Shown here one piece after another: positions 16,530 through 44,800 of a stretch of DNA of 64,000 nt. Under the pieces are notes generated by a model, which worked only from the letters and a program-made list of their open reading frames with translations, did no database searches and was not told the origin of the DNA. The stretch comes from Rhizophagus irregularis. Taxonomy: Eukaryota; Glomeromycota; Glomeromycetes; Glomerales; Glomeraceae. The DNA lies in NCBI RefSeq assembly GCF_026210795.1, contig NC_089455.1, forward strand, positions 1,674,001 to 1,738,000, read 5' to 3'. The translations under genes and the position numbers were made by a program. The first letter of the stretch is position 1, and each line of letters starts with the position of its first letter.

Positions 16530-18516
16530 TTATTCAATAAATAATGCCTTTTCATCAATTGGAAATACCAATTTTTCCAAATTTTTCCTAATACTTCTAT
16601 TAAAGTGATTACTACCACACACAACTAATTTAACTTGTTTAGAATTATCTCTAGCAAATAAACTCATATAATTATGTCTTTCATTCATTAATAATATAGC
16701 TGGACTATTATTTAAAGGTGAAGAAGAATAAGGCGAAGAAGAATAAGATGGTGAAGTTTGATTATACTGTCGATCTATTGAATTATTATGGGGTGGAATC
16801 TGGATAGGTGCAGGTCTATTTTTAGGAGTTAAAGGTACGTTATTTTGTTGTTCATGCTTCGAATTTTCGTTGTTTTTACTAACTTCTTGTATAGGATTAT
16901 TATTCACATTATAATTATTTGGATTTAAATAATTATGAGCATTCATATTTTGCATGTTTTGAATACCATGTGTCAAATTGCTCGTAAAATTACTTCCACC
17001 ATAATTAGAAATTTTTGGCGGGATTGCTGGTGGTGGTGTCGAATAGTTTTCTCTGATCCAATCGTACAACAATACTTCATCAATTGATCCACTATCACCT
17101 CTCCAAGTAGGCGGTGGTTTGGATAAAATATATTTGACTTCAAGTTTTCCTTGTCCTTCTTTAAGTTTCTGACGTAAATAATCTAAATATTTTGGACAAA
17201 TTAAATCTTCTATTTTATCAAATGCTGCCAATAAATATAGCTCGAAGTTGGAATTTGCTTTTTCAATATGATATTGTATCTAAAAAAAATTTTTTTTAAA
17301 AAAAAAACCATAAACATTTTTTAATTCTTATAATAAAATTAAATTTATTGTAACTTACCAATTGTAACATTGGAGTAATTCCAGTTCCACCACAAACCAT
17401 AAACAAACAATCCCAACATAAATCTTCTCTTTCCTTATTCAACAATATTCCACTTCTTTTACCAAGAATATTATTCATTTGATTATTGTCAATACCGCTT
17501 GGTCTTTTTATATAATCCATGTGCAATCTACTGAGTGTGCGAGTGTGTGAATTTGCTGACGAAGGCCTAGTTATAGAGTCTAATATTGGTGAAGGTGCTG
17601 ACAAATATGTCCTTCTATCTGCTATATCAAATGGACCTCTCACTTTGACCTCGAAATTTCTTAATTGTTTGTCCTATAAGAAAGTGTTAAAATGATGAAA
17701 TCCAATTCAAAAACTAACATTAAAATGATTGTTTTCACTCACCAAATGTTGAGTCATAATACCATCTTTGTATATTTTTACAAGTATACAAAAACTATTT
17801 TCACTCGGCCCTTGAAGTGGGGTGTAAGGTCTAATGATGACATGATTATTGACATAACTCATAATTTCAATGTAATCACCCGGAAGGAATTTTGGTAATA
17901 TATCATCTGGATGAATAATTTGAAATGTTAATTTTTTTACTAGAGTTTCAGCATTAGATCTAGTTACAACTTCAATATTTGATAAAATATATCTTCTGAA
18001 AATATAAGGAGATGGTTGTTGTAATTCTTTCTCGTTAAACTGTTGTGGTTGAAAAGAATTATCTTCCAAATTTGATATTCTAGAAACCACCATACTAGCT
18101 AATTTCGAAGTAGCAAATTTAGAATGGCGATGTCTTGCAACTCTACGATTTTTAAATGCTATGGCATTAATTCTATCGACAGCATTTGCCACACTATAAG
18201 GTTTACTCTTAATAAAACTTTGCCTGTTCTCCTTATATGTATCATCCGTTAGTACCGATATACTAGATTTTTCAACATCATAATCATTATAATCTTTAAA
18301 ATTATTTTGGATCATTGTTTTTACTGTTGGATCATAAAAGAAATCGTTTGTTATGTCTGTTCCTATAACACGTTGTAGGATTTTTTGTCCTCCTGGATGT
18401 AGTGTGATCCATCTATGTATATCAAATACTAATCCTTCTGCTACAACTAAATTCGCTCCTGTCATAACTCTTTTATTGAATTCCTAATTTATAAATGAAC
18501 GGTTAAAGTAATGAAA

Positions 18517-18563
<47 letters not shown>

Positions 18564-21500
18564 TTACTCACATCCCATGTTACAACAGGTAAATTTTCAA
18601 TAACATCATCGGGAATACAATTACGAATACGGTTTGTTGGATCGTCAGAATTTCTTACTGGCCATAAGAATTGCATATTTTTAATTTTATAATAAAATTC
18701 GCTTATTGTTATCACAAATCCAAATATTACTATCGTAATACGGTAATTTAAAATAAATATTAGTAAAATAATTCTAAAAGTTTAAATAATTATATAATAC
18801 TTACATAACCATCCAGTATAGATCCAAATATATTTTCTATTCTCGCCACGGTCCCCGCTAAATTTCTTATCATATGTCATCATTCCTAAAATTATGTTTG
18901 TCCTGATACAAACGAATAAAAAAATGATTAATTAAAATAAATCAGTACGTGATGAATACTTCAAATAAATTTACCATGCAGCTAAAAGTAGCACAGCTCC
19001 TAAGTAAAAATGAAGATGTTTTAAATATCGAACAATCCCTGTCGATGCTGATTCAACATTCGCTAAACTCCAAATAGCCAATATGCCCAAGGAAATTTGT
19101 ATTACTATTATAGAAATTATTACTATCCCCATTCTAAATAAGAATATTAAAAAAAAATAGAATGAGGATTCTGGAATAAATTCTAGAAATAAACATGATT
19201 ATTTTTCTTTTTATTTACATCGCGTGAGGACTTGTTCCATGTGCGGTTGTTGCCGTTAGAGCCACTGCGGCAAATACTGCTACCATCATTCCGCCAAATA
19301 AATTAAGGTTTCGATGTTGTACCATATAGTTATCATTATGTCTTAAGTATCTAACCATCCATACTGAACCTATAATTAAATACAAATGGATAAAACGATA
19401 CAGTTTATACTGAATAAAAAAAATTCGATTTAATTAATTTTATTTACATGGAAATAACACTCCCCAAACACTGAACATAGCAATTCCATGCATTTTTAAT
19501 AATCTTCGTCTGTTATCTGTAAGATCTGTGGTTGTGCCTGTTCGGAAATTAATCATTCTTTTACCACGATTTCCACCGTGATAAGTTAAGCTATGTGAGT
19601 TAGGATTCCAAGCATAAACCACTAGACGTAGAAAACACATTAGGTTTAATCATTAATTATTAATAATATAATGCATGTTTTCTTCTACATACTTTCGATG
19701 TCACCATCTAGGGATTTTCTATTTTTATTATTTATTGGACGAGTAACTTCAAGTGAAGTTAAACCACCTTCAACTTTTTGATTAGAAATAGTTATAATTT
19801 GATCATTATTATCTAATTGCTTAGGTACAATACCAAGTCCAATTCCTTTAAAATTTTTTCCAGTAACAGAATTATTTTCATTCCAAAATATCATCATATC
19901 AGTGTCTGTCATACCATTACCATTAGGATTAAATCCTATTCCAAACCATGAATTTGTACTACTCATTGTAATTAAGAAAGTAATAGTTGTTGAATCCATT
20001 TTCCATTGAATATTATAATCATTGGAAAGTGATAAAGGCGAATTATAACCGTTATTAGTGTTTTCGGGTAATTTTGACGAAGCAGGCGGTTGTACGAACC
20101 AGACATTTCGAGGGTAATATGAATCCGGGGTATTTCTTTTTATGATATCTAATAATGTTGTTGTTTGAATTTTTGCTATATCCTCTTTACTAAATCCAGC
20201 ATCCGCATTTTCATACCAAAATCTATCTGCGGCTCGGCTTTTTATCCATTGGTCTGAAAAACTTTTATAAAATAACTCTCCAAAATTTCCACCATTAACG
20301 TGATCTTCTGCTAATCCACCCATTAATGCTTCAACTCGATCTACCGTTGTATATGTATCTTGTAATCTTTTCTGTACATCAGGATCACTTGATATTTCTG
20401 CAAATGAATTTTTTCTTGCTAATCCAAAAGCTTGTCTCGCGTCATTATATAATGGAATACCACGATCTCTACTTCGAACAGTATCGACACTTTAAAATGA
20501 GTAAAGGAAACATTACCACTTATTAGTAGGGGCATATCGTGAACATTTATAAAATTATCTTACCTAACAATGTCAAAATATTCTGAGATATGTAGGTAAT
20601 GTCGCCTAAATATCCAAATAATAAGGGATGTTATACATATGTGCATAAATTCAACGTATTATAATGAGTTCTAGCATGTATGTTCTTTGAAAAAACTGCT
20701 AAAAAATAAACTTACACAAAATCGGCAGTATAAATATCAACTTCTTCTTGTCTATAAGTGTTAAAATTTTTTATTTTAGATAATTAAATTAAATTGAGAA
20801 AACATGAAAACATATAAATTTATTATAATAACTACCTCTGAAGCGCCAATGAAAGTGCAATAGATGGAACTCCATATGTTTTTATTAGTTGAGAATTTTG
20901 TAAATCATTTAACATCAACGATGTAAGTAATTCTCCTTGTCCATTTACTATGTCATGAAAGTCACTATAACATAGTGTATATACTACTTAATACTAACAT
21001 TATACTACTATAAAAATTAGTAAAATATTATGATTCAATTATCCAAACTTATTACCTGAGTTCAGAATGACCATATCGATAGGTTACGGTAGCAAAGAAA
21101 GTGTCAATAGATGGTGTAATTTCTGGTTTATATCCATCATATTTAGGTAAAGGAGTTCCCAATGCTGTCCCAACTGTTAATAATTATAATAGCATATATT
21201 TTAAATAAGCAGCAATTGATAAGCCAGATAACATATTACTATAAATTAAACTTACGATATTCATAATAAGTAATTTTTTGGAGAAAAGCTATAACCCATC
21301 TTCTAGCTTCTTGAAAATATGTTTCATCATCCCAATTATCTTTATTGACATTATAAAGTTCATCGCATAATCGATTGTGCTCACGTAAGAAAAGTATATG
21401 AAAAAAATCTGTAAAAACATTTCTTCCAAATACTGCACTATATCCATATATAAAATCGCCATTCGCATAGACAGGTGGATATCCAAATGCTCCATCAGGT

Positions 21501-22451
21501 GTAGATTCTTTTATTAATATCATTTTTCCCCTATTATTATAATCTCTGACCAATCGTAAATCATCATTACTGTTGCCATAAACTGTTGACGCGTCAATAA
21601 ATGATGTGGCCTCATTAACTCCTGTATTACCACCATCTGGAACTGATCGATTAAACGGTAATGCAGCCTAAAAAAATATTATCATAATAAATTATATTAT
21701 ATGCGTTATGTTAAATAATAAGAACATTTTGTCATTAATAACGCATAAAAATTTCATTATAATGTAAAGTGTAATAAAAGCTTACTTCAGCAAAAGAAAG
21801 ATCTGCGGGTTTTGGACCGTTTCGATAACTAGATAAATAAATTTGATCGTCTTGAGGGATATAAACACCTTTTGGATAATTCATTCCTGATTCGAAACCA
21901 CTACTAATATCCATTTTCATAAAAAGGCCCCAATATGTTAACTTTTGAAATGAGAAATGAGAAAAGAAAAAGTATTAATATACCGCAGTAACGAAAATCA
22001 TTCTACGCCATTACAATAGACTGGTACCGCATCAAGCAAATATAAATACACTTACAATATGAGAAACTTTTCGTTTACTTTTGAACTTTTCCAAACGTGG
22101 TATATCAAATGTATCATTATCTTTTGATTGCTTAGACATTAATTTATTACTAACACATCTGGGTAAAGGAAATATGTCATCAGGTAAGGTGGCGTTGCAA
22201 GTAAAAAGTGTATCTGGAATAGATGTATAATCTCCGGGAGTATGAATTAAATTATTATTCGCATCTGCATAATGGGACGTTGAAGGAAGATTTCTTACGA
22301 AAGGAGTCTTTGGAATACCGGCCGTTGGCTGATACCTGTTATTACCCATGCCATCTATTGAACGATATTCACATGTTGTCGTGATAATTAATATAGACAC
22401 AGTGTAAAAGAGAAATAATAACAAATTGAACGGTTTATTTTTGATTATCAT
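16530..22451 (-). CDS. Peroxidase-DOMON-b561-b5-reductase fusion (copy 1)
   Basis: A 16-exon gene, 1543 residues. Exons: 22451-22056, 21941-21786, 21667-21256, 21173-21056, 20964-20836, 20751-20716, 20605-20564, 20489-19693, 19621-19448, 19369-19219, 19133-18975, 18902-18805, 18729-18572, 18483-17743, 17673-17359, 17279-16530; all phases agree. Residues 1-27 form a signal peptide. About 30-570 is an animal-type heme peroxidase (FLREHNR; RYGHSEL with the proximal His near 357) that reads most like the DUOX peroxidase homology domain: GIPLYNDARQAFGL and DRFWYENADAGFSKEDI match DUOX blocks. At the distal site the motif is YWGLFMKMD, so His appears to be Met142. About 590-720 is DOMON (GIGFNPNGNGMTDTDMM). 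About 735-905 is cytochrome b561 with His in HGIAMF, QHRN, HGTSPH and KHLHF. Cytochrome b5 has LHPGG (His971) and a second His near 1062. The reductase has RPYTP (about 1160) and CGGTGITP (about 1284). Likely a plasma-membrane protein moving electrons from cytosolic NAD(P)H outward; the product (reactive oxygen, reduced metal or other) is unknown. Confidence 0.93.
18517..18559. repeat. (ATT)n microsatellite in an intron
   Basis: About 14 ATT triplets just upstream (in gene orientation) of the exon that starts at 18483, inside the intron 18571-18484 of peroxidase-fusion copy 1. The matching intron of copy 2 lacks it. Confidence 0.9.
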
Positions 22452-23423
22452 TGTTGAATTTTTCTACTTGATATTTCAGCTAGAAATATCGTCTATTTCA
22501 CTTCGATATATAAATGACGTATACTATTTAATTAGAGACCGGTTAATGTCAATATTAGGAATTTAATTAATCTCCAAATAGAGAAAATAATTTAAATGAT
22601 TTAAAGAGTTTCCTCAATAAATAAGTTATTGTCAGAATGAAGTTTAACCTTCAACGTATTTATGTATAATTCTTTTATTAAAAAAGGTTATCAATTATTA
22701 GATAAACAATATCAAAACGTAAACATACTTAAATGATCGTCTATTATATTGTGATTCTACTTACTTTTTAGTATTTTCATTACAATGTTCGAGTGACAAG
22801 TGCAGTATTTTATTTACATTTCAAGAAACTCATTTGCGTACGGCGCAAAATTCTGAGTATTTGCCGTCATTTTGCTTACACGGATTTTTTTTACCGCTTA
22901 GCAAAAAAATATTTTGAGATTATTCCTGTTTTTATTTATTGTTTAATTTTAAACATTACCGAAACAGAAAATTTCATAAATTAGCCCTTTGACCGGAATT
23001 TTTTTACCGACAACTTCGCTTCATTAAGGCCGGACAAAAATCTTGGGCATGACATTCCAAAATAAACCCTTGTTTCCGGACTTATTACACCGACAAAAAA
23101 CAAATGTTGTTCAACCATGTCCCAAGTTTCCAAACTTCCAAACTTGACTATGAACCAACCAAATTAGGTAATGTTTAGCAGTTTAGGGGTATGGCAGGTT
23201 TCAGTCTTTCAGATCTGGGTTATAACATACAAATTTACCTAATTAAGAATGAATGAATATAAAAATACATTTTCAATGAACATTTTCGATAATCATGACG
23301 CCGGAACGATAATTAAAATTTTATTTGTAAAATTTATATTAAATAATAAATAAATGCTATATACTGTATATAAAATTAAAAAAAAAAACTAAAAAAAAAA
23401 ATATAAATATAAATTTTTTTTTT
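22452..23423. other. Spacer between the tandem paralogues
   Basis: About 970 bp separating the start of copy 1 from the stop of copy 2. It must hold the copy 1 promoter and the copy 2 3' end. The part at 22790-23230 is less AT-rich than usual. No repeat element or coding sequence was recognised, and an open frame at 22793-22984 has no protein-like features. Confidence 0.6.
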
Positions 23424-26400
23424 CTAAGCAATAAATAAAGCTTTTTCATTAATTGGAAATCCTATTTTGTCTAAAGATAATCTAATATTTTCATTAAATT
23501 GGTTTGTACCACAGACTATTAATCTAACTCGTTTAGAAGTATCTCTGGCAAATAATTTCATGTAATTATGCCTTTCATTCATCAACAAAATTTGATTTGC
23601 TGCAGCATCACTTAAATTTGCAAGTTGAGGTGGTGATGAATAAGGAGGATAAGCTTGATTGTAAATCAATTGCTGTTGATCTTCTGATTGGTACATTGAA
23701 TTATTATTGGATATTGGAACGAGACTTGGAGAAGATACAATATAATTGGGATCATAATCAACATCTTGTATATTATTAATAATAATATTAGGATTATAAT
23801 AGCTATTGTCAACAAGGTTACTTGTGCTACCGTTTCCAATGCCATAATTGGAAAACTTTGGTGGAACTGCAGGAGGAGGTACCGAATACCTTTCACTGAT
23901 CCAATCATATATTAATGCATCGTCAATCAATCCACTATAATCTCTCCAAACTGCTGGTGGCTTGAATAAAATATATTTGACTTCAAGTTTCCCATTAAGT
24001 GATTGACATAAATAATCAATATATTTTGGATAAATCAAATCTTCTATTTTATCAAATGCTGCTAATAAATATAAGCTGAAGTTGGAATTTGAAGAAGTCG
24101 CTTTTTCCATATGATATTGTATCTAAATAAATATAAATAACAATTAATTAGTTATTTTTTTTTATAAAGATATAGATTAAATTAAAAGTCTATAAATAAC
24201 TTACCATCTGTATCATCGGAGTAATTCCCGTTCCACCACAAACCATAAACAAACAATCCCAACATAAATCTTCTCTTTCTTTATTTAATAATACTCCAGT
24301 TCTATCACCAAGTATAACATTATTATTACTTTCATTAGAATTACTAATACTATATCCTTTATGATGATTTTCGTACTGGAAATAAGTTGAGAAGTTATTT
24401 GGTCTTATCATGTAATCTAATCCATTAAAACCAAACGAGCTTATCATAGGTGATGATGGTCTTGTTAATGTATTTGGTGGTTCTAATGTAGTTGAAGGTG
24501 CCTGATAATTTGTTGTCATTCTATCTGCTATATCAAATGGCCCTCTCACTTTGACCTCAAAGTTTTTTAATTGTTTATTCTATAAGAGAAAAATATTAAA
24601 ATGATAAATACGAATCGAATAATTAATAATATAAAAAAATTTGGTTGGTTTACTTACCAAATGTTGAGTCATAACACCATCTTTGTATATCTTAACCAAT
24701 ATACAAAAACTAGTTTCAGTTGGCCCTTGAAGTGGAGTATAAGGTCTGATAATAACGTGATTATTAGCATAACTCATAATTTCAATATAATCACCTGGAA
24801 GGAATTTAGGTAATTTATCATTTGGGTGAATAACTTGAAATGTTAATTTTTTCACAACGTTTAAAGCGTTAGGTCTTGTTACAATTTCAATATTTGTTAA
24901 AATATATCTTCTGAAAATATAAGGAGAATATGGTGGTGGTTGCGGAATTAATGCCTTTTCACTATTATTTTGATTTGAAGAATTATCATCACCTACTATT
25001 CTAGCGATTACCATACTAGCTAATTTCGATGTAGCAAATTTTGAATGACTATGCATTGCAACCCTACGATTCTTAAATGCTGTAGCATTAATCCTATCAA
25101 CAGCATTAGCTACACTATAAGGTTTACTCTTAGTATAACTTTCCCTATTTTCTTTGTATGTATCATCTGTTAATAACGGTATACTAGGTTCTTTAACATT
25201 ATACTCTTCTTTAAGGCTATTTTGGATCACTGTTCTTACTATTGGATCAAAAAAGAAATCATTGGTAATATCTGTTCCTATAACACGTTGTAGGATTTTT
25301 TGTCCTCCCGGATGTAGTGGAATCCATCTGTGTATATCAAATATCAATCCTTCTGCTACGACTAAATTCGCTCCTGTCATAATTCTTTTATTAAATTCCT
25401 AAATCATAAAAATAAAAAAAATATTAAATAATGTCAAAAATTAAAATTACTAAATCATATTGTTACTTACTTCCCAGGTGACGACAGGTAAAGTTTCGAA
25501 AACTTCATCGGGAATACATTTACGAATACGTTTTGTTAAATCATCCGATTCTTTTACTGGCCACAAGAATTGCATATTCTTAATTTTATAATAAAATTCA
25601 CTTGCTGTTATTGCAAATCCAAACAATACTATCATAATGTGTAATTTAAGAATAATATATTATTAAATGATTTTTAAAAAAAATATGATAATAAAAATAA
25701 TACCATAATACTTACTTAACCATACTGTGTATGCCCAAATATACCCTCTATTCTCGCCACGATTCCCACCAAATTTCTGATCATATGTTATCATTCCCAA
25801 GAATATATTGGCCCTAAAAATAAAATGAAATTTAATTTTAAAGAAAAGAAAATCATTGCGTAACAAGTGTATTTAAAAAAAAAAATTACCATGCAGTTAA
25901 AAGTAACGCAGTTCCTAAATAAAAATGAAAATGTTTTAAATAACGAACAATTCCTGTTGATGCTGACTCAACGTGTTCCAAACTCCAAATCGCCAATATA
26001 CCCAAAGAAACTTGTATTGCTGTTATGGTAATTATTGTTATTCCCACCCTATGATAAAAGAAATATTTAAGATTAATGAATTGAATTCATGAAAACAATT
26101 TTTTATTTATTTTTTACTTACACTGCATGAGAACTTGTTCCATGTGTAGATGTTGCCGTTAGAGCTACTGCGGCAAATACTGCTATTACCATTCCACCAA
26201 ATAAATTTAGGTTTCGATGTTGTACCATATAACTATCAATATGTCTTAAATATCTAACGATCCATATCGAACCTATAAATAAATTATATTTATTAATTTT
26301 AAAATGGTCAAATAAAAAAAATTGATTATTGATTATTTTATATTTACATGGAAATAGAACCCCCCAAATAATAAACATAGCAATTCCGTGCATTCTTAAT

Positions 26401-29250
26401 AGTCCTGGTCTGTTATCTGTAAGATCCGTAGATGCTCCTGTTCGGAAATTTATTGTTCTTTTTCCACGATTTCCACCGTGATAAGTTAAAATATTTGAAT
26501 TGGGATTCCAAGCATGAACCACTAGATAGATAGAAAAAATATTAATTAAATGTTCGTAAATAATCAATAATTAATAAAATTTTCATTTACTTACTTTCAA
26601 TATTACCGTCTAGAGATTTTCTATTTTTATTATTTATTGGACGAGTAACTTCAAGTGAAGTAGTACCACCTTCAACTTTTTGACTAATAATAGTTATAAT
26701 TTGGTCATCATTACCCAATTGCATAGGTACAATACCAAGTCCAATTCCTTTAAAATTTTTTCCAGTAACAGAATTATTTTCATTCCAAAATATCATCATA
26801 TCAGTGTCTGTCATACCATTACCATTAGGATTGAACCCTAATGCAAACCACGCATTTGTACTTCTCATTGTAATTTGAAAAGTGATGTTTGTTGAATCCA
26901 TTTTCCATTGAATATTATAATCATCAGAAAGTGATAAGGGTGAATTATAACCATTATTAGCGCCATCAGATGGGCCTGCTGAATTAAAAGATTGTACAAA
27001 CCAAAGATTTTGAGGATAATATGAATCTGGAGTATTTCTTTTTATGATATCTAATAATGTTGTTATTTGAATTTTTGCTATATCTTCTTTACTAAATCCT
27101 GCATCTGCATTTTCATACCAAAATCTATCTGCGGCTCTGATTTTTACCCATTGTTCTGAAAAACTTTTATAAAATAATTCTCCCAAATTTCCACCATTAA
27201 CATGATCTTCTGCTAATCCACCCATTAATGCTTCAACTCGATCTACCGTTGTATAAGTATCTTGCAATCTTTTCTGTACATCAGGATCACTTGATATTTC
27301 TGCAAATGATTTTTTTCTTGCTAATCCAAAAGCTTGTCTCGCATCATTATATAATGGAACGCCATGATCTCTACCTCGAATATTATCGAGACTGAAAAAC
27401 GAATGAATAAAGAGATTTAAAACTCGTGTACATATTTTTTTTAAATGAAACGAATGCATAATACGTAATTATTTTTACCTGGAAATATCCATCCATCTTG
27501 AGGCATGAAAATAAAATCGCCTAAATAATCAAAAAAAAAAGTATTGATTAATAATTATTAATAACAATACATGATTAAAATAAAAGTGATGAACTTACAC
27601 AAGATCGGCAGAATAAATATCAACTTCTTCTTGCCTATTAGGTGTTAAAATTTTATATTAGATAAAGATAATTAAATTAAGAAAGTACATAATTCATTAA
27701 ATACCTTTGAAGTGCCAATGAAAGTGCAATTGAAGAAGATCCATATACTTTTATTAATTGAGAATTTTGTAAATCATTTAATGACAAAGTTGTAAGTGGT
27801 TCTCCTTGTCCATCTACTATTTCGTGAAAATCACTACGTATAATGTATAATTTTAATATTAACATTAATAAGATGAACAAAATAGTATGATACAATTATC
27901 CAATATTTTAGTACCTGAGTTCAGAATGACCATAACGATAGGTTACGGTGGAAAAGAAAGTATCAACAGATGGTGTGATTTCTGGTTTATATCCATCATA
28001 TTTAGGTAAAGGAGTTCCCAATGCTGTCCCGACTATTAAATAATCAAAAAACAGCATAAATTATAAACATGCAGTAATATAAACTAGATAACATTTTATT
28101 GTAAATAACTTACGATATTCATAATAAGTAATTTTTTGGAGAAAAGCTATAACCCATCTTCTAGCTTCTTGGAAATATGTTTCATCATCCCAACTATTCC
28201 CATGAATAGCGAATAATTCGTCACATAACCTATTGTGTTCACGTACGAAAAGTATATGAAAAAAATCTGTAAAGACATTTCTTCCAAATTCTGCGCTATA
28301 TCCATATATAAAATCGCCATTCACATCGACAGGTGGATATCCAAATGCTCCATCAGGTGTAGATTCTTTTATTAATATCATTTTCCCATTATTATTATAA
28401 TCTCTAATCTTTCGTAAATCAGCATCACGATTACCATAAACTGTAGAACCGTCAACAAATATTGAGGGTTCATTGATTCCCGTATTACCACCATCTGCTA
28501 CTGATCTATTAAATTCTAATGTTCCACCCTATATAATATTAATTACATTAATGATAGGATAAAAAGATTTTGTAACAACAAGGCGTTAAATTTAGCTTAC
28601 CGGAAAAAAAGTAATGTCTTTAGGTTTTATACCATTTCTATTACTGGATAAATAAAGTTGATCGTCTTGAGGGATATATACACCTTTTGGGAAATTCTGT
28701 CCTACATCGAATCCAGAACTAACATCCATTTTCACAAATAATCCCCAGTATGTTAACTTTTTTATTTAAAAATTTATAACAAAATTGTCAGTGTGGCGCA
28801 GTAACCATATTATTTAACTGCGGCAAAGTCCAATAAAAAAAGAAAAATTCCTACCATATGAGAAATTCTTCGCTTACTTTTGTATTTTTCTAAAAGTGTT
28901 GTATTAAACATATCATCATCTTTTGATTGTTTAGACATTACTTTATTACTAACACATCTAGGTAAAGGAAATGTTCCTTCAGGTAAGTTTGCGTCACAAG
29001 TAAAAAGAGTTTTCGGAACATCTAAATAGTTTCCGGGAGTGACAATCAAATTATTATTCGCATCAGCGAAAAAGGATGTTGAAGGAACATCTCTTGCGAA
29101 GGGAGTATCTGAAATACCGGCCGATGGTTTGTTTCTATTATTACCCTCACCATTTATTGAACGATATTCTATACATATTGTAGTAGTTATTAAAAGGAAT
29201 GTGAAGAGGAGATAAGATAAAAATTTGAAAAGTTTATTTTTAATTATCAT
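23424..29250 (-). CDS. Peroxidase-DOMON-b561-b5-reductase fusion (copy 2)
   Basis: Tandem paralogue of the downstream gene, 16 exons, 1547 residues. Exons: 29250-28855, 28756-28601, 28528-28114, 28032-27915, 27833-27705, 27634-27599, 27520-27479, 27391-26595, 26521-26348, 26272-26122, 26048-25890, 25813-25716, 25628-25471, 25398-24658, 24579-24205, 24122-23424. Every splice phase equals that of copy 1. Only exons 3 (+3 bp), 15 (+60) and 16 (-51) differ in length. Domain order is the same: signal peptide, DUOX-like peroxidase (FVREHNR; RYGHSEL), DOMON, b561 with four His, b5 with LHPGG, and reductase with RPYTP and CGGTGITP. The distal peroxidase motif is YWGLFVKMD, again Met at the His position. 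The extra 20 residues in exon 15 sit in the linker between the FAD and NAD(P)H lobes. The insert in exon 16 is Asn/Pro/Tyr-rich and freely diverged, probably a disordered cytosolic loop. No disabling change was seen. It shares about 2.1 kb of upstream DNA with the divergent GCP6 gene. Confidence 0.93.
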
Positions 29251-31376: not shown

Positions 31377-34300
31377 ATGATAAGCGAAGGTGACTTACTT
31401 TTAAATAAAGATAATAACTTACAAGATTTATTGTCTGAAATTAGCGTGTCTGATACACGCTCAATTTTATTTGGAACTTTAGGTATTTATTTATTGTAAT
31501 TTTTTAAATGATAATGATTACATATATATTAATTTTTTTCATTTATTTATAGACCAGGATATTAGTTTTAACCTGAACAAAGACTTTGACTGTTCATTTC
31601 GTATACCAGAATTGCCGACTCGTCCTATTGATGTTCTATTAGATTCTTTGCCAATTCCAAATTCACAATTCATACTTAATCAACCCAAAGATTCTCCAAA
31701 GTCATCAATTGATGATGACGAAACTCAGAGTTTTATATCCACACAAATATCTGAGGTTTCAGTACCTGAAGAAAAGTCAATATGGGACAAAGTGATGAAT
31801 TTTGATAAGAAACAGGTATTGTAAACATACTTCGAAAAATTAGGATTACATTTATTTATCTAATTTTTTTTCTTTTTTTTTGGTTTGCTATATTAAGGGA
31901 CAAATGCTATCTTGGGAGTCAACTGGAACATTAAAATTAAAACACAATCTGACTTCTCCATATTTATTAGAGTCAGATATTTCAGTATTTGAATCTGTTT
32001 ATCATAACTACTTTCACCATTCTTATGGATATAATTATTTTTCTGTTCCTCATGAGGTTTTAATCCAAGATATCCTAAGTTTAATAACTGGAACTCAATC
32101 AAAAATATTCTCTTATGATAAATCTAGTAGGAAATTTATTTCAAAATATTTAAACCTTCGTATAAGTGGGTGTAGTTCTAGAAGTATCAATAAGTATGTA
32201 AAAAAAAAAGAAATATGCCAATAGAAATAATACAAAAAAAAACACATTATTTATTTAAGGAAAATTATTATATTTTCTATATATTTATATATTTATTTTT
32301 TTAGAATGCTGGGGCGCTTTTTAAATCTTGGTTCACATATTAGGAGACTTGAAAATGTTGCAGAAAAATGCATGAAGAGTTCACGGTATAATTATTATTA
32401 TGAGAGATATTACTAGAAATTATTTTAATTATTTATTTGATATTAAAAATTTATTTATTAGATTATATGGATTAACTGGTGTTGCCTTTGGACGGTCACT
32501 TTCTTCTTTTATCTCATTTATACGAACTTCAATTGTTACAATGGTTGAAACAATAAGTGACCAGGACCAAATGAAAATTATTCGGCTTTATCATTTAATA
32601 GATGATATTTCATTAGTAATCGAAAGAATTGCTGCTTTTTGTCGATGTGTATGTATTAGATAAATTCTATTATTCGATAACAATGTGATTAATTAATTAA
32701 TTAACAATAAATTTTAGGATATAGAGAATTCAAGATTGTTAGAATTGACAGAAAATCAAAAAGAACAACTTGAGCTCGAAGGATTTTACGTACCGCTCGG
32801 CTCGAATATTCTATCAGAGTTATACATTACTGCCGAGTCAATAGATGCAGTACGGGCTCCGCTCCTAAAATCTGTGTTATTAGTATTTTTGGAACAGTCG
32901 AGTCATCCTTTTTTTCATATGTTAAGTTCTTGGCTAGGCGTTGGTCCATCATCATTTCATTTTTCATTACCGCTGGAATTACAAAAAGGTGATTTTCTCG
33001 ATCCATATGAAGAATTCTTTATTGATAATTTCGTAGTTGATTCTAATTATGTTAAGCAAAATGGAGACGAATTTTGGCAAGGTGGAATTCACGTAAGTTC
33101 TTTTCTGTGCTATTCTATTTTTATTATTAATTTAATTCGTTAATATTCTTTATATTCTTTTTATAGGTAAGTAATGACCATCCACTTCCTGCTTTTATTA
33201 ATGTCGAGCTAGCTCGAGACGTTCTTGAGGCAGGAAAATCTTTGAGATTGTTAAGAGATTGTCGTCCAAATCATCCGCTATGTCATTCACGTGTTATATT
33301 AGATCAAACAACTGGCAAACGAGCTTGGGATATAAAGATGAGATGGTTATTCATCCAAAGAGACATTGACAAGTAAGTGAAGAAACCACAAAAATCGTAA
33401 TCTTACAAGTACAATTATTTTTTTTTTCATGTGATATTTTATTTTTTATATATTCGTAATTATATAGTATGAAAGAACAGCTACAAAACTACTCAAAAGA
33501 CATGACAATAGCAATTGTTATACAAGATGAACATCGTAAAGCGGAAATTGCTGGGATTCGTGAACGTTATCAAAAAAAAATGTCAAAACGAAAACAAGAC
33601 GTTAAGTCAATTGAGTTATCTCGTAATTTTTTTTCTTTAATTAAGTCTGACTTTATTTATTGTAATATTTTCAGGCCGAATTACACCTTAATCAAAAAAA
33701 GGAATCTGCCAGAATAGAACTCGAAGAACGATCAAAAAAGAAAACTGAATGGAAGAAAAGTGTTGAGGTATGTTTTTTTATACAATTCTATCGATTTCAT
33801 TAACTTATTAATTGTATATTTGTAATTTAGAAATATTTAGCAGAAAAAAGATTAAGTATCTCTGAAACCACCCCTAACTTAAATAAACTTTCAATAAAAA
33901 TGCCACCGCCAGAAAAATCCAGAAATAATCCAATTTTTGTAGAATCACCGCAAGACACCCATAAGAGTCTTGAATCATCTATGAACCAGAGAGAAACTTA
34001 TGAAAAGAATGATTCAGATCGTACTCATGATACCTTGAATATTGAAAACCTGTACAGTGTACATCGAACGGATGTATTTGATTTTGCGCTGTCATATTCA
34101 ACAAATGATGATCCAACCATGGCGTTGATTGAACATCTGTTGCGAGCACAGTCTTCGAATTCTTCTTATGCGCACAAGGAATATATTCTTCCTTTAAGTG
34201 CTATCACAGAATTAGTTGTCCGGCAAACTTTACTTTGTCATTGTCGATTGATTAATGCTTCAATCTTATCTATCTTCTTCAATGATCTTGATCTTCGCGC

Positions 34301-35778
34301 ACATTTGAATGTCTTACGGGACTTTATGCTTATGGGTAATGGAACATTTGTTTCTGGATTGGTAGAAGCATTATTTAATGACAATGTTGATCTTGGAGAA
34401 GATTTTTTTCCAGCTAATGATAATCTTGGAATGGGTATAGGACTTGGCATTAGATTAAATAGTCGTCAAACTTGGCCTCCTGTTGGAATTGAGTGGAGGA
34501 TGGCTCTAAAAGCCGTTATTGTAGAGACTATTCTTTTAGAAAAGAAGAATTTGGAAAATGAAGATTCTCATCCGATAGATGCATGGGGTAAAGTTAATGA
34601 TTTGGATAACATGCTTATGTTTGGTATTCACACGTATAAAGAATCAGAAATTTGTAATGATCCGAATGGTAATTATCAAAATTTTATTTTTTATTTTGAA
34701 TTATGATTTATTGCCTTAATTATTAACTAATAGTATTGAATATTATATCCATTTATTTCGGAATTATTTCATTATTTAAGCTTTAGAAGCATTGGATTTT
34801 CTTTATCTTGATTTTAAACCTCCCTATCCGATTAACGTAATTATAACTCCTAGCTCAATTTCAAAATACAATCGATTATTTACATTTCTTTTGCGAGTGT
34901 TACGTATGGGAACAGTTATTCGACACATTTATAGACTAGCTCATGAACGTTATTTATATGATGATGAGGGAGAAGCTGCTGAGTATAGCGTACTTGTTCA
35001 AAAATTCCGATTTGATGCTCAACAATTCATTATCGCACTACACGAGTATGTATTTGATGTTGCAATATCAACTACTTGGACTCTATTTATGAAAAGGTTA
35101 AATATAATCGCAAAAGAGTCGGAATTTGAGTTACCTCGTGAGCATGTTTGGGGACGAGGAAGTACTAGCGATTCAGTTAGCCTTTTTGATGAACAATCAG
35201 ATGTTTTTTCAGTAGGAAATGTGGATGAATTTGAAAATGAGGAAGATGATGATGAAATTGGAGAGGGGGTGAAAGATCTTGAATCATTACGTTCATATCA
35301 TGATCATATTTTAGATCGTATGTTATTTCAATGTTTACTTAAAAAGAAACAAGAAGCAGTTATGAAGGTTCTCAACGGAATTTTTACAGTAGTATTAACA
35401 TTCGCCAATAAGTTACAACAAAAAAGGTCGCGTATAATTAGCTTGCAAAAAAGACAAGAGTATTGGAATTCAATTAAAGACTTGCATGGAAAATTTAGAT
35501 TATATACAGCAATGCTTGTAAAGATATTAATGGCTTTAGATGAAAAAGGTGGTGGAAGAATGGGAATGGGAATGAAACGTACAGCTAATATTAATCCTGA
35601 AGGAGAAAGTGCGGGAACTAATTTTTCTACAAGTCGTGATGATGGGAGATCTTATCATGATAAAGTTGATAATCAATCTGGCGGTGGATTTTTACAAGAA
35701 TTTTTGTTAAGGGTGGACTTTAATGGCTTTTATGCTTCAATTATAGCAAAAGAATTGTCGAAAAGAAATAAAGATTAA
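31377..35778 (+). CDS. Gamma-tubulin complex component, GCP6-like
   Basis: An 11-exon gene, 1191 residues. Exons: 31377-31482, 31553-31815, 31898-32193, 32305-32385, 32462-32648, 32718-33092, 33167-33372, 33468-33600, 33675-33767, 33831-34668, 34781-35778; the sum is divisible by three. Spc97/Spc98-family proteins form the ring that nucleates microtubules at spindle pole bodies. The N-terminal GRIP1-like part (about 120-500) has LLESDISVFES, a conserved DPYEEFFI block and AGKSLRLLRDC. A charged coiled-coil of about 100 residues follows (RYQKKMSKRKQD; EERSKKKTEWKKSVEKYLAE). The C-terminal GRIP2-like part has the family signature PYPINVIITPSSISKYNRLF and FLLRVLRM. The long linker with a coiled coil between the two halves, and the wording of the DPYEEF and AGKSLRLLRDC blocks, favour GCP6 (fission yeast Alp16) over GCP2-GCP4; GCP5 is the main alternative. 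The donor after position 33600 reads GTTAAG, weaker than the others, but only it keeps the frame. Confidence 0.8.
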
Positions 35779-41870: not shown

Positions 41871-44800
41871 ATGTCTCAAGAACAAAAAGTACAAACAGGG
41901 CCAAATGAAGCATCAGTTGGCCTATCGGGTTCAGCTCCAGCAAAAGATGAAGAAACTAAAAATAAATCCCATTTAGCTATCGATTCCGCGGCGGAAATTC
42001 CTGATTGGGAAAAAATTGGATGGAAAAGGGTTTCTGAATTTGGAGAACCTAGAACCGATAAAAAATTTCAATATGAAGAAATTTTAAAAGAATTATATTA
42101 TAACGATTTATGGACATATTCTGGAGTTGTTTTTATTTCTTTGTTTGCTACTTGGTTTATTGTATTATGTGGCGGAAGTATTGGTTGGGTCTTTGTCTTA
42201 TGTGCATTCATTAGTATGTATCTTTTTTTATATATATTTATTTATTTATTTAATAATATATATAAAATTTATTTATTAATTCGATTTTTTTTTTTCCCAC
42301 AGCTACATATTTGAAAAATTCTGTGAATAGATTTTATAGAAATGCTAAAAGTGATATTAGCAGGAAAATTGCAAGAGAGAAATTAGAAGTAGATGAAGAA
42401 AAAGTTGAATGGTTAAATGAATTTTTACGAAGATTTTGGTTAATTTATGAACCCGAATTATCAAAGTCAATTATTCAAATAGCTGATACTGTTTTATCCG
42501 CATCTACACCAGGTTTCTTAGATTCTCTAAAATTAACCAATTTTACTTTGGGTACAAAGCCCCCTGTAATTGAATCTATTAGATCTTATCCAAAAGAAAA
42601 TGATAATGAAGTGGTACGTAACCCATCATTAGTGTTGTCCTACATCTATTGACTAATATAATCCTTAAAATTTTAACCATTTTTTTGTTGCTTCTTTCGT
42701 GTGTAGGTTATGGATTGGAGAGTTAGTTTTGAACCAAATGATTTAGCAGAAATGACAAAAGCACAATTAGTAAAAAAGGTTAATCCTAAAGTAATTTTAA
42801 CTGTAAGAGTAGGAAGAGGATTTGTAGGGGCGGGAATACCAATTTTATTAGAAAACATGTCATTTACAGGATTATTAAGAGTCAAATTGAAATTAATTCC
42901 AAACTTTCCACATGTCGAAACTATTGAATTTGGTTTTCTCGAAAAACCAAATATTGATTATGTGTTGAAACCTATTGGTGGTGAAACTCTTGGATTTGAT
43001 ATCGGAATTGTAAGTGTAAATGTTGTGTCAAAATTTGAATTAAAATTAAAATTAAATTAATTTGTGCATTTCTTTTTTTCATCCGTTGTTTAAATTCTCA
43101 TTTAGGTCCCTGGATTATCATCATTTATTAAAGATCAGGTTCATGCAACACTTCAACCAATGATGTACCCTCCAAATACATATCAATTAAAAACGGAACA
43201 CTTATTATATGGATTCCCTGTAGAATCATCAATCGGAGTATTAAAATTAACAATTAAAAACGCTAAATCTTTAAGAAATGCCGAAACATTCGGTACATCA
43301 GATCCATATTGTAAAGTAGTATTAATATCATCCGATGTCACAGAAGCTGGAAAAGAATTAACACGTACAAAACATATAAGTAATTCTTTAAATCCAGTCT
43401 GGGACGAGACTCATTATTTATTATTTCATAACTTAAGAGATAGTTTTAAATTCCAAATTTATGATTCTAACGGTAGTCTTAATTCCGATACTTTACTTGG
43501 CGATACCACTGTTCCTCTGAAAAATTTTGAGGAAACCCCTAATCAATCCAATAAGTGAGTTTTTTTTTAATAAGACACTAATATTTTTTTTTATTTGCCT
43601 TTCATATTTATATTATTTTCTTTTTTAGAACAATTCCGGTTTATCATAATGGAAAACAAAAAGGAGAATTAAATTATGATGCAGTTTGGTACCCAATCGT
43701 TAAAACTGAAAAAGACAAACCTGTTCCTGAATCAAGTATGATTGTGTACTTTTTTGCATTATAAATGATACTATAGATATGAACTTAATTTTTTTTAATT
43801 ATTTTTAGATATCGGAATTTTGAAATTTAATCTTCATCAGGCTAAAGATCTTGATCCAAAATATTCAATGGTTGGAGTATACAATCCATATGTTGATTTA
43901 AAATATAACGGAAAAAATATGTTTACATCAAAAACATTTAGGAGAAGCAACAATCCGACTTGGGAGGTAAAGAATAATGTTAAAATATGCTTATTTTTTT
44001 TTTTCACTGTAACATCATTTTATTCATTCTCTCGTTCTTTATAGGAATTCTTTGAAATATTTATAACGGACAGAAAGAAAGCAAGTTTAGAATTGAATAT
44101 TAGAGATGAGAGAGGTTTTGCTGAAGATCCTATAGTTTGTAGTTGGAGTATGAATGTTGAAGATTTTGTAAGACTAAATGGGGAATCAGGAATTGATTGG
44201 TTTGATGTTTATGGTGCTCGTAGTGGTAAAGTTAGATTAAGTTGTCAATGGAAACCTGTTATACTTGATCATACTCCTGAAAATAGTGGTATGTGAATAA
44301 TATATATGATATAGCACGAAACATTTATTTTGTCTTTATTTTTTTTCCTTTAAGAAAAAATATAAATTATATAAAAAATTAATATATATATATTTCTTAA
44401 ATATATATATAATATATATTTATAATCAAATTTTGTATAAATGTTCGTTTGATTTTAAGTGTTTATGTACTTTGCGTGCTTTTTTTTTTATTTATTTCTG
44501 AAAAAATTTGTTTCTCTCGCAGCCGAACCACCCGCAGCTGAACCATTCGGTATTGTTAAACTTCACATCAAGAAAGCAACAGATATCAAGAATGTGGCGC
44601 AGTTAAGAGGTAATATATAATAATAAAAAAAATGATGATAATTAAATAACAATAAAAATTACAGGACATTAGTAATTGAATGTTTAAAAAAAACCCCTTT
44701 TCAAAATAATCGCTAAACAGGCAAATCGGATCCATATATAAGAATAATGTTAAACTCCATCTATAGAGGTCGTACAAATGTGCGAAATGATAATTTAAAC

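Follow-up and report, generated by a model that had tools for sequence, protein, structure and literature searches.

A peroxidase-like domain without its distal catalytic side on a predicted transmembrane electron chain: a tandem gene pair in Rhizophagus irregularis

What can a protein do that carries the fold of a heme peroxidase at one end and an NAD(P)H reductase at the other? The question is raised by two tandem genes in a 64,000 nucleotide stretch of the Rhizophagus irregularis genome (146.7 Mb, 32 contigs), referred to here as the window, whose proteins match those of R. irregularis best. Both genes are on the minus strand, gene 1 at 16530-22451 and gene 2 at 23424-29250, and both encode the same series of modules: a signal-like N-terminus, a peroxidase-like domain (An_peroxidase), DOMON, cytochrome b561, cytochrome b5, and FAD- and NAD-binding domains. 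The family is real and conserved, occurs in mycorrhizal fungi and in certain related fungi, and relates to the CYBDOM and DUOX systems. Computation identifies the modules, the conservation of their ligands and the loss of the distal catalytic side from the outer domain, which is a pseudo-peroxidase with its proximal side kept. With slightly better than even confidence, the evidence points to an NADH-driven trans-membrane electron exporter of the CYBDOM type, having its own b5 reductase and an outer heme domain that would not be a peroxidase.

The five-module order had been proposed in an earlier note made from the sequence alone, and is supported. In the Pfam search which that note had suggested as a check, five families were found in the gene 1 protein, all encoded on the minus strand: An_peroxidase (residues 29-558, E 1.4e-98; 20105..22367, exons 1-8), DOMON (585-700, E 4e-13; 19548..20026), Cyt-b5 (940-990, E 2.1e-8; 18076..18592, probably split by an insertion at about 18145-18333), FAD_binding_6 (1121-1204, E 5.7e-11; 17614..18003, with the RPYTP motif) and NAD_binding_1 (1281-1370, E 5.9e-13; 16533..17445, with CGGTGITP). 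NAD_binding_6 overlaps the last of these above its own cut-off, as a weaker match. The b561 core (18683..19502) is placed by its five transmembrane helices, its conserved histidines and a Pfam match considered further below. All of the motifs quoted in the earlier note are present. A signal peptide was read from the N-terminal hydrophobic segment of gene 1, without a signal-peptide program. Because this segment is followed by an odd number (five) of transmembrane segments, the topology that the note had suggested, with the N-terminal domains outside and the b5 and flavin parts inside, is likely.

The residues of the outer domain were compared by aligning 64 fungal rows with 7 references, with gaps excluded from the residue counts. 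The roles of the aligned distal and proximal positions are assumed to be those of MPO. The distal histidine column holds a residue in 54 fungal rows and is gapped in ten; the letter of P0056, one of the 54 and N-terminally truncated, is a misalignment. None of the 54 has the distal histidine, as against 6 of the 7 references, its place being taken by Phe (28), Met (18), Leu, Tyr and Ser (2 each), Ile and Ala (1 each). The ester-forming Asp (0/54, references 5/7) and Glu (0/61, references 4/7) are likewise absent, and the distal Arg is found in 4 of 61 rows, with uncertain alignment in those four, compared with all 7 references. The proximal side is intact: His in 56/56, its Asn in 62/62 and a further Arg in 62/62, together with the calcium-site Asp in 62/62. 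In gene 1 the distal position is Met142 (codon 21912-21914) and the proximal histidine is His357 (codon 21067-21069). Nine loci of the family in R. irregularis all lack the distal His, with Met in three, Leu in one and Phe in five.

Among solved structures the closest is Dictyostelium peroxinectin/peroxidase A (PoxA; 6erc, E 4.7e-62), DUOX being more remote, and a Foldseek search with the model of a homologue's peroxidase-like domain returned 6erc (target TM-score 0.81), MPO and LPO. Unlike the window protein, PoxA is a 511 aa chain without the other modules and keeps its distal His, in the motif WGQFLIHN where the window protein has WGLFVKMD. The ratio of non-synonymous to synonymous substitution rates (dN/dS) between genes 1 and 2 is 0.36 over the peroxidase-like domain, which is therefore under purifying selection and not in decay.

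Since the distal catalytic side is lost and the proximal side kept, the domain is no classical peroxidase. The REHNR and RYGH motifs quoted in the earlier note are no sign of a working peroxidase; the fold and the proximal side stand, but peroxidase chemistry is not supported. Membership of the active peroxidases was rejected, the fold and the proximal His and Asn being present, the distal His missing and the distal Arg nearly so. An extracellular peroxidase or oxygenase in which the chain feeds NADH electrons to a catalytically competent heme is improbable. In its favour are the retained fold, the proximal His, the Asn and the residues of the calcium site, and a distal Gln position that is still Gln in 25 of 54 and His in 3, but the distal and ester-forming residues are lost to the extent given above, and a separate relative in the same genome (L017, described below) keeps the distal set.

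If the domain is not a peroxidase, it might carry no electrons at all and instead crown a DOMON-b561 metal reductase as a head for adhesion, assembly or sensing. The peroxidase domain of human DUOX1 is structural, and peroxidase-DOMON heads are found joined to b561 alone (P0062), to a cyclase (P0064) or to a kinase (P0066), the last two in place of b561, which would suit sensing. These combinations suggest that peroxidase-DOMON is an older, reusable outer cassette. However, a pure scaffold would not need the strictly conserved proximal His, Asn and further Arg, and a head of this kind is regarded as unlikely. P0066 is likewise without the distal His. P0062, from a EukProt eukaryote, has the same peroxidase-DOMON-b561 order, but it keeps the distal His and has no b5 or reductase.

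The cofactor sites of the modules that follow are conserved. Over the same 64 fungal rows, the DOMON ligands are Met in 61/61 and His in 57/57, and the four b561 histidines are found in 53/53, 52/53, 54/54 and 46/47. The proposed DOMON heme ligands of gene 1 are Met623 (19910-19912) and His710 (19578-19580), both on the minus strand, and from the topology His740/His802 would form the outer b561 pair and His772/His845 the inner pair. At the sequence level these are the features of CYBDOM proteins such as Arabidopsis HYP1/CRR, in which a DOMON with Met/His ligands is followed by a di-heme b561 with two His pairs. The spacing is similar: the b561 histidines of the window protein are 32, 30 and 43 residues apart and its DOMON Met and His 87, the HYP1 values being 34, 33, 36 and 84 (PMC10784544, from the part of the paper available). 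The same part of PMC10784544 reports trans-membrane ferric and cupric reduction by HYP1 with ascorbate, models the DOMON and b561 residues as heme ligands and tests the outer b561 pair by mutation; a peroxidase domain, a b5 or a flavin reductase, as in the window family, is not reported there.

In cytochrome b5, the LHPGG motif seen in the earlier note is present, and the HPGG histidine is conserved in 60/60 fungal rows, but the note had overlooked a probable interruption of the domain and a probable second ligand. The Pfam match of gene 1 ends after position 51 of a 74 position profile. Beyond this, the domain is probably interrupted by a flexible insertion, with its second heme ligand in an HxHSxFA motif on the far side, the second His of which is conserved in 62/63 rows and is also present in a chytrid fragment (P0094). 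In gene 1 the ligands would be His971 (18397-18399) and His1062 in HRHSKFA (18124-18126), on the minus strand. They are 91 residues apart, and the distance is 87-142 in nearly all of the 53 rows in which the motif could be measured; in canonical b5 about 24 residues lie between the ligand histidines. Homologue models have a stretch of low confidence between the two. Removal of the insertion raised the Pfam b5 score by 2.8 to 6.6 bits in four of four pairs and extended the match to position 69-73. The support from this test is mild, since in an imperfect control the natural tail scored 44.8 bits, a scrambled one 41.8 and the segment with no tail 39.8.

The reductase part has what is expected of an NADH-cytochrome b5 reductase: the FAD_binding_6 and NAD_binding_1 fold and the RxYT and GGTG motifs. 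The flavin Arg is conserved in 59/59 fungal rows, and Foldseek matched this part of homologue P0086 to NADH-cytochrome b5 reductase (target TM-score 0.79). The NAD domain is broken by a loop rich in Q, P and N ahead of a C-terminal CGSN (CGPP in many relatives), which is disordered in P0086 (predicted local distance difference test, pLDDT, <50 at 856-928). Between genes 1 and 2, dN/dS is 0.08 for the b5 core and 0.14 for the FAD domain; every folded module is under purifying selection and dN/dS exceeds 1 only in a 21-codon linker (2.97).

These parts can be assembled into a path, the order of the modules along the chain being the proposed order in space. Electrons from cytosolic NADH, presumably favoured over NADPH, would enter the FAD of the b5 reductase fold, pass to the interrupted cytochrome b5, then to the inner and the outer heme of the five-helix b561 core, and from there through the DOMON heme to the peroxidase-fold domain outermost. 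If heme-loaded and placed in the plasma membrane, as seems probable, the protein would thus work in the manner of plant HYP1, a CYBDOM reductase, except that a tethered NADH:b5 reductase would take the place of ascorbate as soluble donor. Having a reductase of its own would free such a b561 chain from ascorbate, which fungi are not known to synthesise. The peroxidase-fold domain would most likely be the outermost reductase or docking heme for small acceptors, with Fe(III) or Cu(II) chelates or quinones favoured over O2. In this way electrons from NADH could be delivered by the nine-locus family of R. irregularis to the soil or to the root apoplast, both of them places of competition over iron, copper and reactive oxygen.

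Several observations weigh against the electron exporter. The Cytochrom_B561 match (residues 760-865 of gene 1) scores 20.6 bits against a cut-off of 23; the assignment is held because five transmembrane helices are predicted in two homologue models, five hydrophobic segments are present in gene 1 and the four membrane histidines are conserved, and a precomputed PF03188 match is found on 7 of P0001-P0058. The heme of the peroxidase-like domain is proposed from one side of its pocket. The second b5 histidine is not confidently placed in either model, with a block mean of 71 around His535 in P0086 and values <50 up to residue 1048, beside His1049, in P0087. The models themselves are of homologues of the window proteins, are without hemes, and never include the whole chain folded at once. 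Finally, no feature of the sequence identifies the acceptor.

The favouring of metal chelates or quinones over O2 also separates the exporter from a functional DUOX analogue, in which the outer heme or hemes would reduce O2 to superoxide or H2O2 with the peroxidase-like domain as a degenerate partner. The logic is the same, a degenerate N-terminal peroxidase domain on an NAD(P)H-driven membrane electron chain, and the analogy with different carriers that the earlier note had drawn is supported, with DOMON, b561, b5 and b5 reductase instead of a NOX core. In the absence of the distal His, a coordination site of the pocket could stay open, and NAD_binding_6, although weaker than NAD_binding_1, is of the ferric reductase type. 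However, the 8 families matched by gene 1 at E up to 1 include no FAD_binding_8, no EF hand and no transmembrane core of the NOX/ferric reductase type, the NAD_binding_6 match being no such core, and no b561/DOMON protein is known to be an oxidase. Such an analogue is not probable, and membership of DUOX proper was rejected, the peroxidase-homology domain being present and the NOX/ferric reductase core and EF hands missing.

In the available part of PMC4420034, DUOX is described with EF hands and with a part of the NADPH-oxidase type; its peroxidase domain is reported to be without peroxidase activity and to lack the proximal His. The window family is the mirror image, having lost the distal His. 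It is possible, if doubtful, that it is an independently evolved DUOX counterpart: a five-heme, flavin-fed wire whose peroxidase fold, without a distal side and with the proximal ligand kept, would be the outermost terminal reductase site at the plant-fungus interface. If the exporter reading is right, there would be a second route besides DUOX to a peroxidase domain joined to a transmembrane electron chain with peroxidase residues lost. A chytrid-lineage protein, P0073 (Gonapodya, 2170 aa), is named Dual oxidase 1 in the database and has precomputed Pfam matches to An_peroxidase, EF hands and FAD_binding_8/NAD_binding_6.

Other known systems share single parts. Ppo enzymes (linoleate diol synthases, LDS) are also fungal proteins with an An_peroxidase domain, but they are fused to a P450 (PMC4420034, part available); membership was rejected, as no P450 domain was found in the Pfam scan of gene 1. 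The accessible part of a genomic survey (PMC10629195) describes animal-type heme peroxidases in Mucoromycota, naming A0A2H5TT10 of R. irregularis, as An_peroxidase plus P450. Magnaporthe Imp1, a fungal DOMON-b561 protein akin to CYBDOM, is reported to be organelle-localised, with DOMON-type and b561/ferric reductase domains (PMC6281275, in part), ferric reductases bearing DOMON are reported from Naegleria and oomycetes (PMC3591440, in part), and a look for expression turned up no fungal heme peroxidase in the portion of PMC11035146 available. As the earlier note had named no described enzyme with the five-module order, so none is described among the literature matches listed, from a full-text search with subscription papers and preprints mostly outside its coverage. 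The single-chain family is apparently undescribed. To the databases it is not new, a point that the earlier note had missed: dozens of such proteins are deposited there, and at least 12 of P0001-P0058 are named 'heme peroxidase', a label that the loss of the distal side corrects.

The first protein search gave 85 matches, and modules were counted by eye in the precomputed Pfam column of the best 58 (P0001-P0058). An_peroxidase, DOMON and at least one flavin or NAD domain are combined in 52 of these, and 39 have all five of An_peroxidase, DOMON, Cyt-b5, FAD and NAD. Apart from P0016, the 52 are from Glomeromycotina and one member of the Mortierellales, and they span 12 genera (Rhizophagus, Funneliformis, Gigaspora, Dentiscutata, Diversispora, Acaulospora, Entrophospora, Paraglomus, Cetraspora, Scutellospora, Racocetra and Actinomortierella). 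Partial sets are found in Podila (P0055) and Jimgerdemannia (P0058), the chain of P0058 terminating in a CGPxxM segment that resembles the NAD tail. Lineage searches were run under length and word limits, and this distribution does not establish absence from Dikarya or Mucorales. The outer domain may have arisen by fusion onto a reductase without peroxidase; a profile from DOMON to the end, run to look for such relatives, found 32 matches among 7999 scored candidates, all from Glomeromycotina plus the fragment P0107. Shorter entries without a peroxidase domain include P0086, P0090-P0093, P0102 and P0104-P0108; many are marked partial and P0090-P0093 are not. The latter are glomeromycotan, 635-731 aa long, with b5 and flavin domains and no peroxidase or DOMON, P0090 starting inside b561, and may be either genuine short paralogues or gene models that were cut short. 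The partial chytrid entry P0094 (Entophlyctis) begins inside DOMON and by eye has DOMON, b561, split b5 and flavin parts.

In a tree of 37 chosen rows, made by a quick method and rooted at the midpoint, the 24 fungal rows group together in a single clade (Shimodaira-Hasegawa-like approximate likelihood ratio test, SH-aLRT, 100). Within it are two clades of mainly glomeromycotan rows (98 and 97), which exclude Mortierellales and Jimgerdemannia; the tree gives no order for this inner fork and no sister. The fusion is therefore probably older than the divergence of these lineages.

In tblastn, family proteins align over their whole length to nine R. irregularis loci: the window pair, two nearby and five elsewhere. 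The window pair was spliced; the other seven are known as tblastn matches, with frames not proven intact. The nearby two, L010 and L011 (about 1646-1651 kb and 1656-1663 kb of the same contig, G000:C27), are on the same strand and, at 10-30 kb ahead of the window, make a four-gene cluster with the pair. Two further An_peroxidase loci are of a different type. L017 (3731-5914) has a signal-like N-terminus and an intact distal His and Arg (FGQLINHD, GDSRASEN), and no DOMON, b561 or reductase part was matched there by tblastn. L018 (3759-5645) is presumably LDS/Ppo-like, from its motifs YRWHP and HDLFHT.

Could the two halves be separate peroxidase and reductase genes read together? The structure of both genes was spliced by hand. 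The exons of gene 1 are 22056-22451, 21786-21941, 21256-21667, 21056-21173, 20836-20964, 20716-20751, 20564-20605, 19693-20489, 19448-19621, 19219-19369, 18975-19133, 18805-18902, 18572-18729, 17743-18483, 17359-17673 and 16530-17279; those of gene 2 are 28855-29250, 28601-28756, 28114-28528, 27915-28032, 27705-27833, 27599-27634, 27479-27520, 26595-27391, 26348-26521, 26122-26272, 25890-26048, 25716-25813, 25471-25628, 24658-25398, 24205-24579 and 23424-24122. Each gene thus has 16 exons and, as the note had seen, one open frame, of 1543 and 1547 aa; all 30 introns (15 + 15) are GT..AG, with identical phases in the two genes, whose proteins are 75% identical. The gene 2 product is 99.87% identical, without gaps, to the 1547 aa P0001 (an R. 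irregularis 'heme peroxidase'), and for the gene 1 product the identity to R. diaphanus P0002 is 94%. The peroxidase/DOMON, DOMON/b561 and b5/FAD junctions each lie inside one exon (8, 9 and 14), so these fusions are independent of splicing; the b561/b5 junction, across exons 13-14, relies on it. Some homologue entries are short or without modules, as an artefact would predict, but with exon-internal junctions, a matching database model, nine end-to-end loci and the same module set in 12 genera, a gene-model artefact is very improbable and was rejected.

Elsewhere in the window, on the plus strand, are a gamma-tubulin complex component (PF04130) at 33834-35778 and a C2 domain (PF00168) at 43109-43558, the gene around which is perhaps tricalbin-like.

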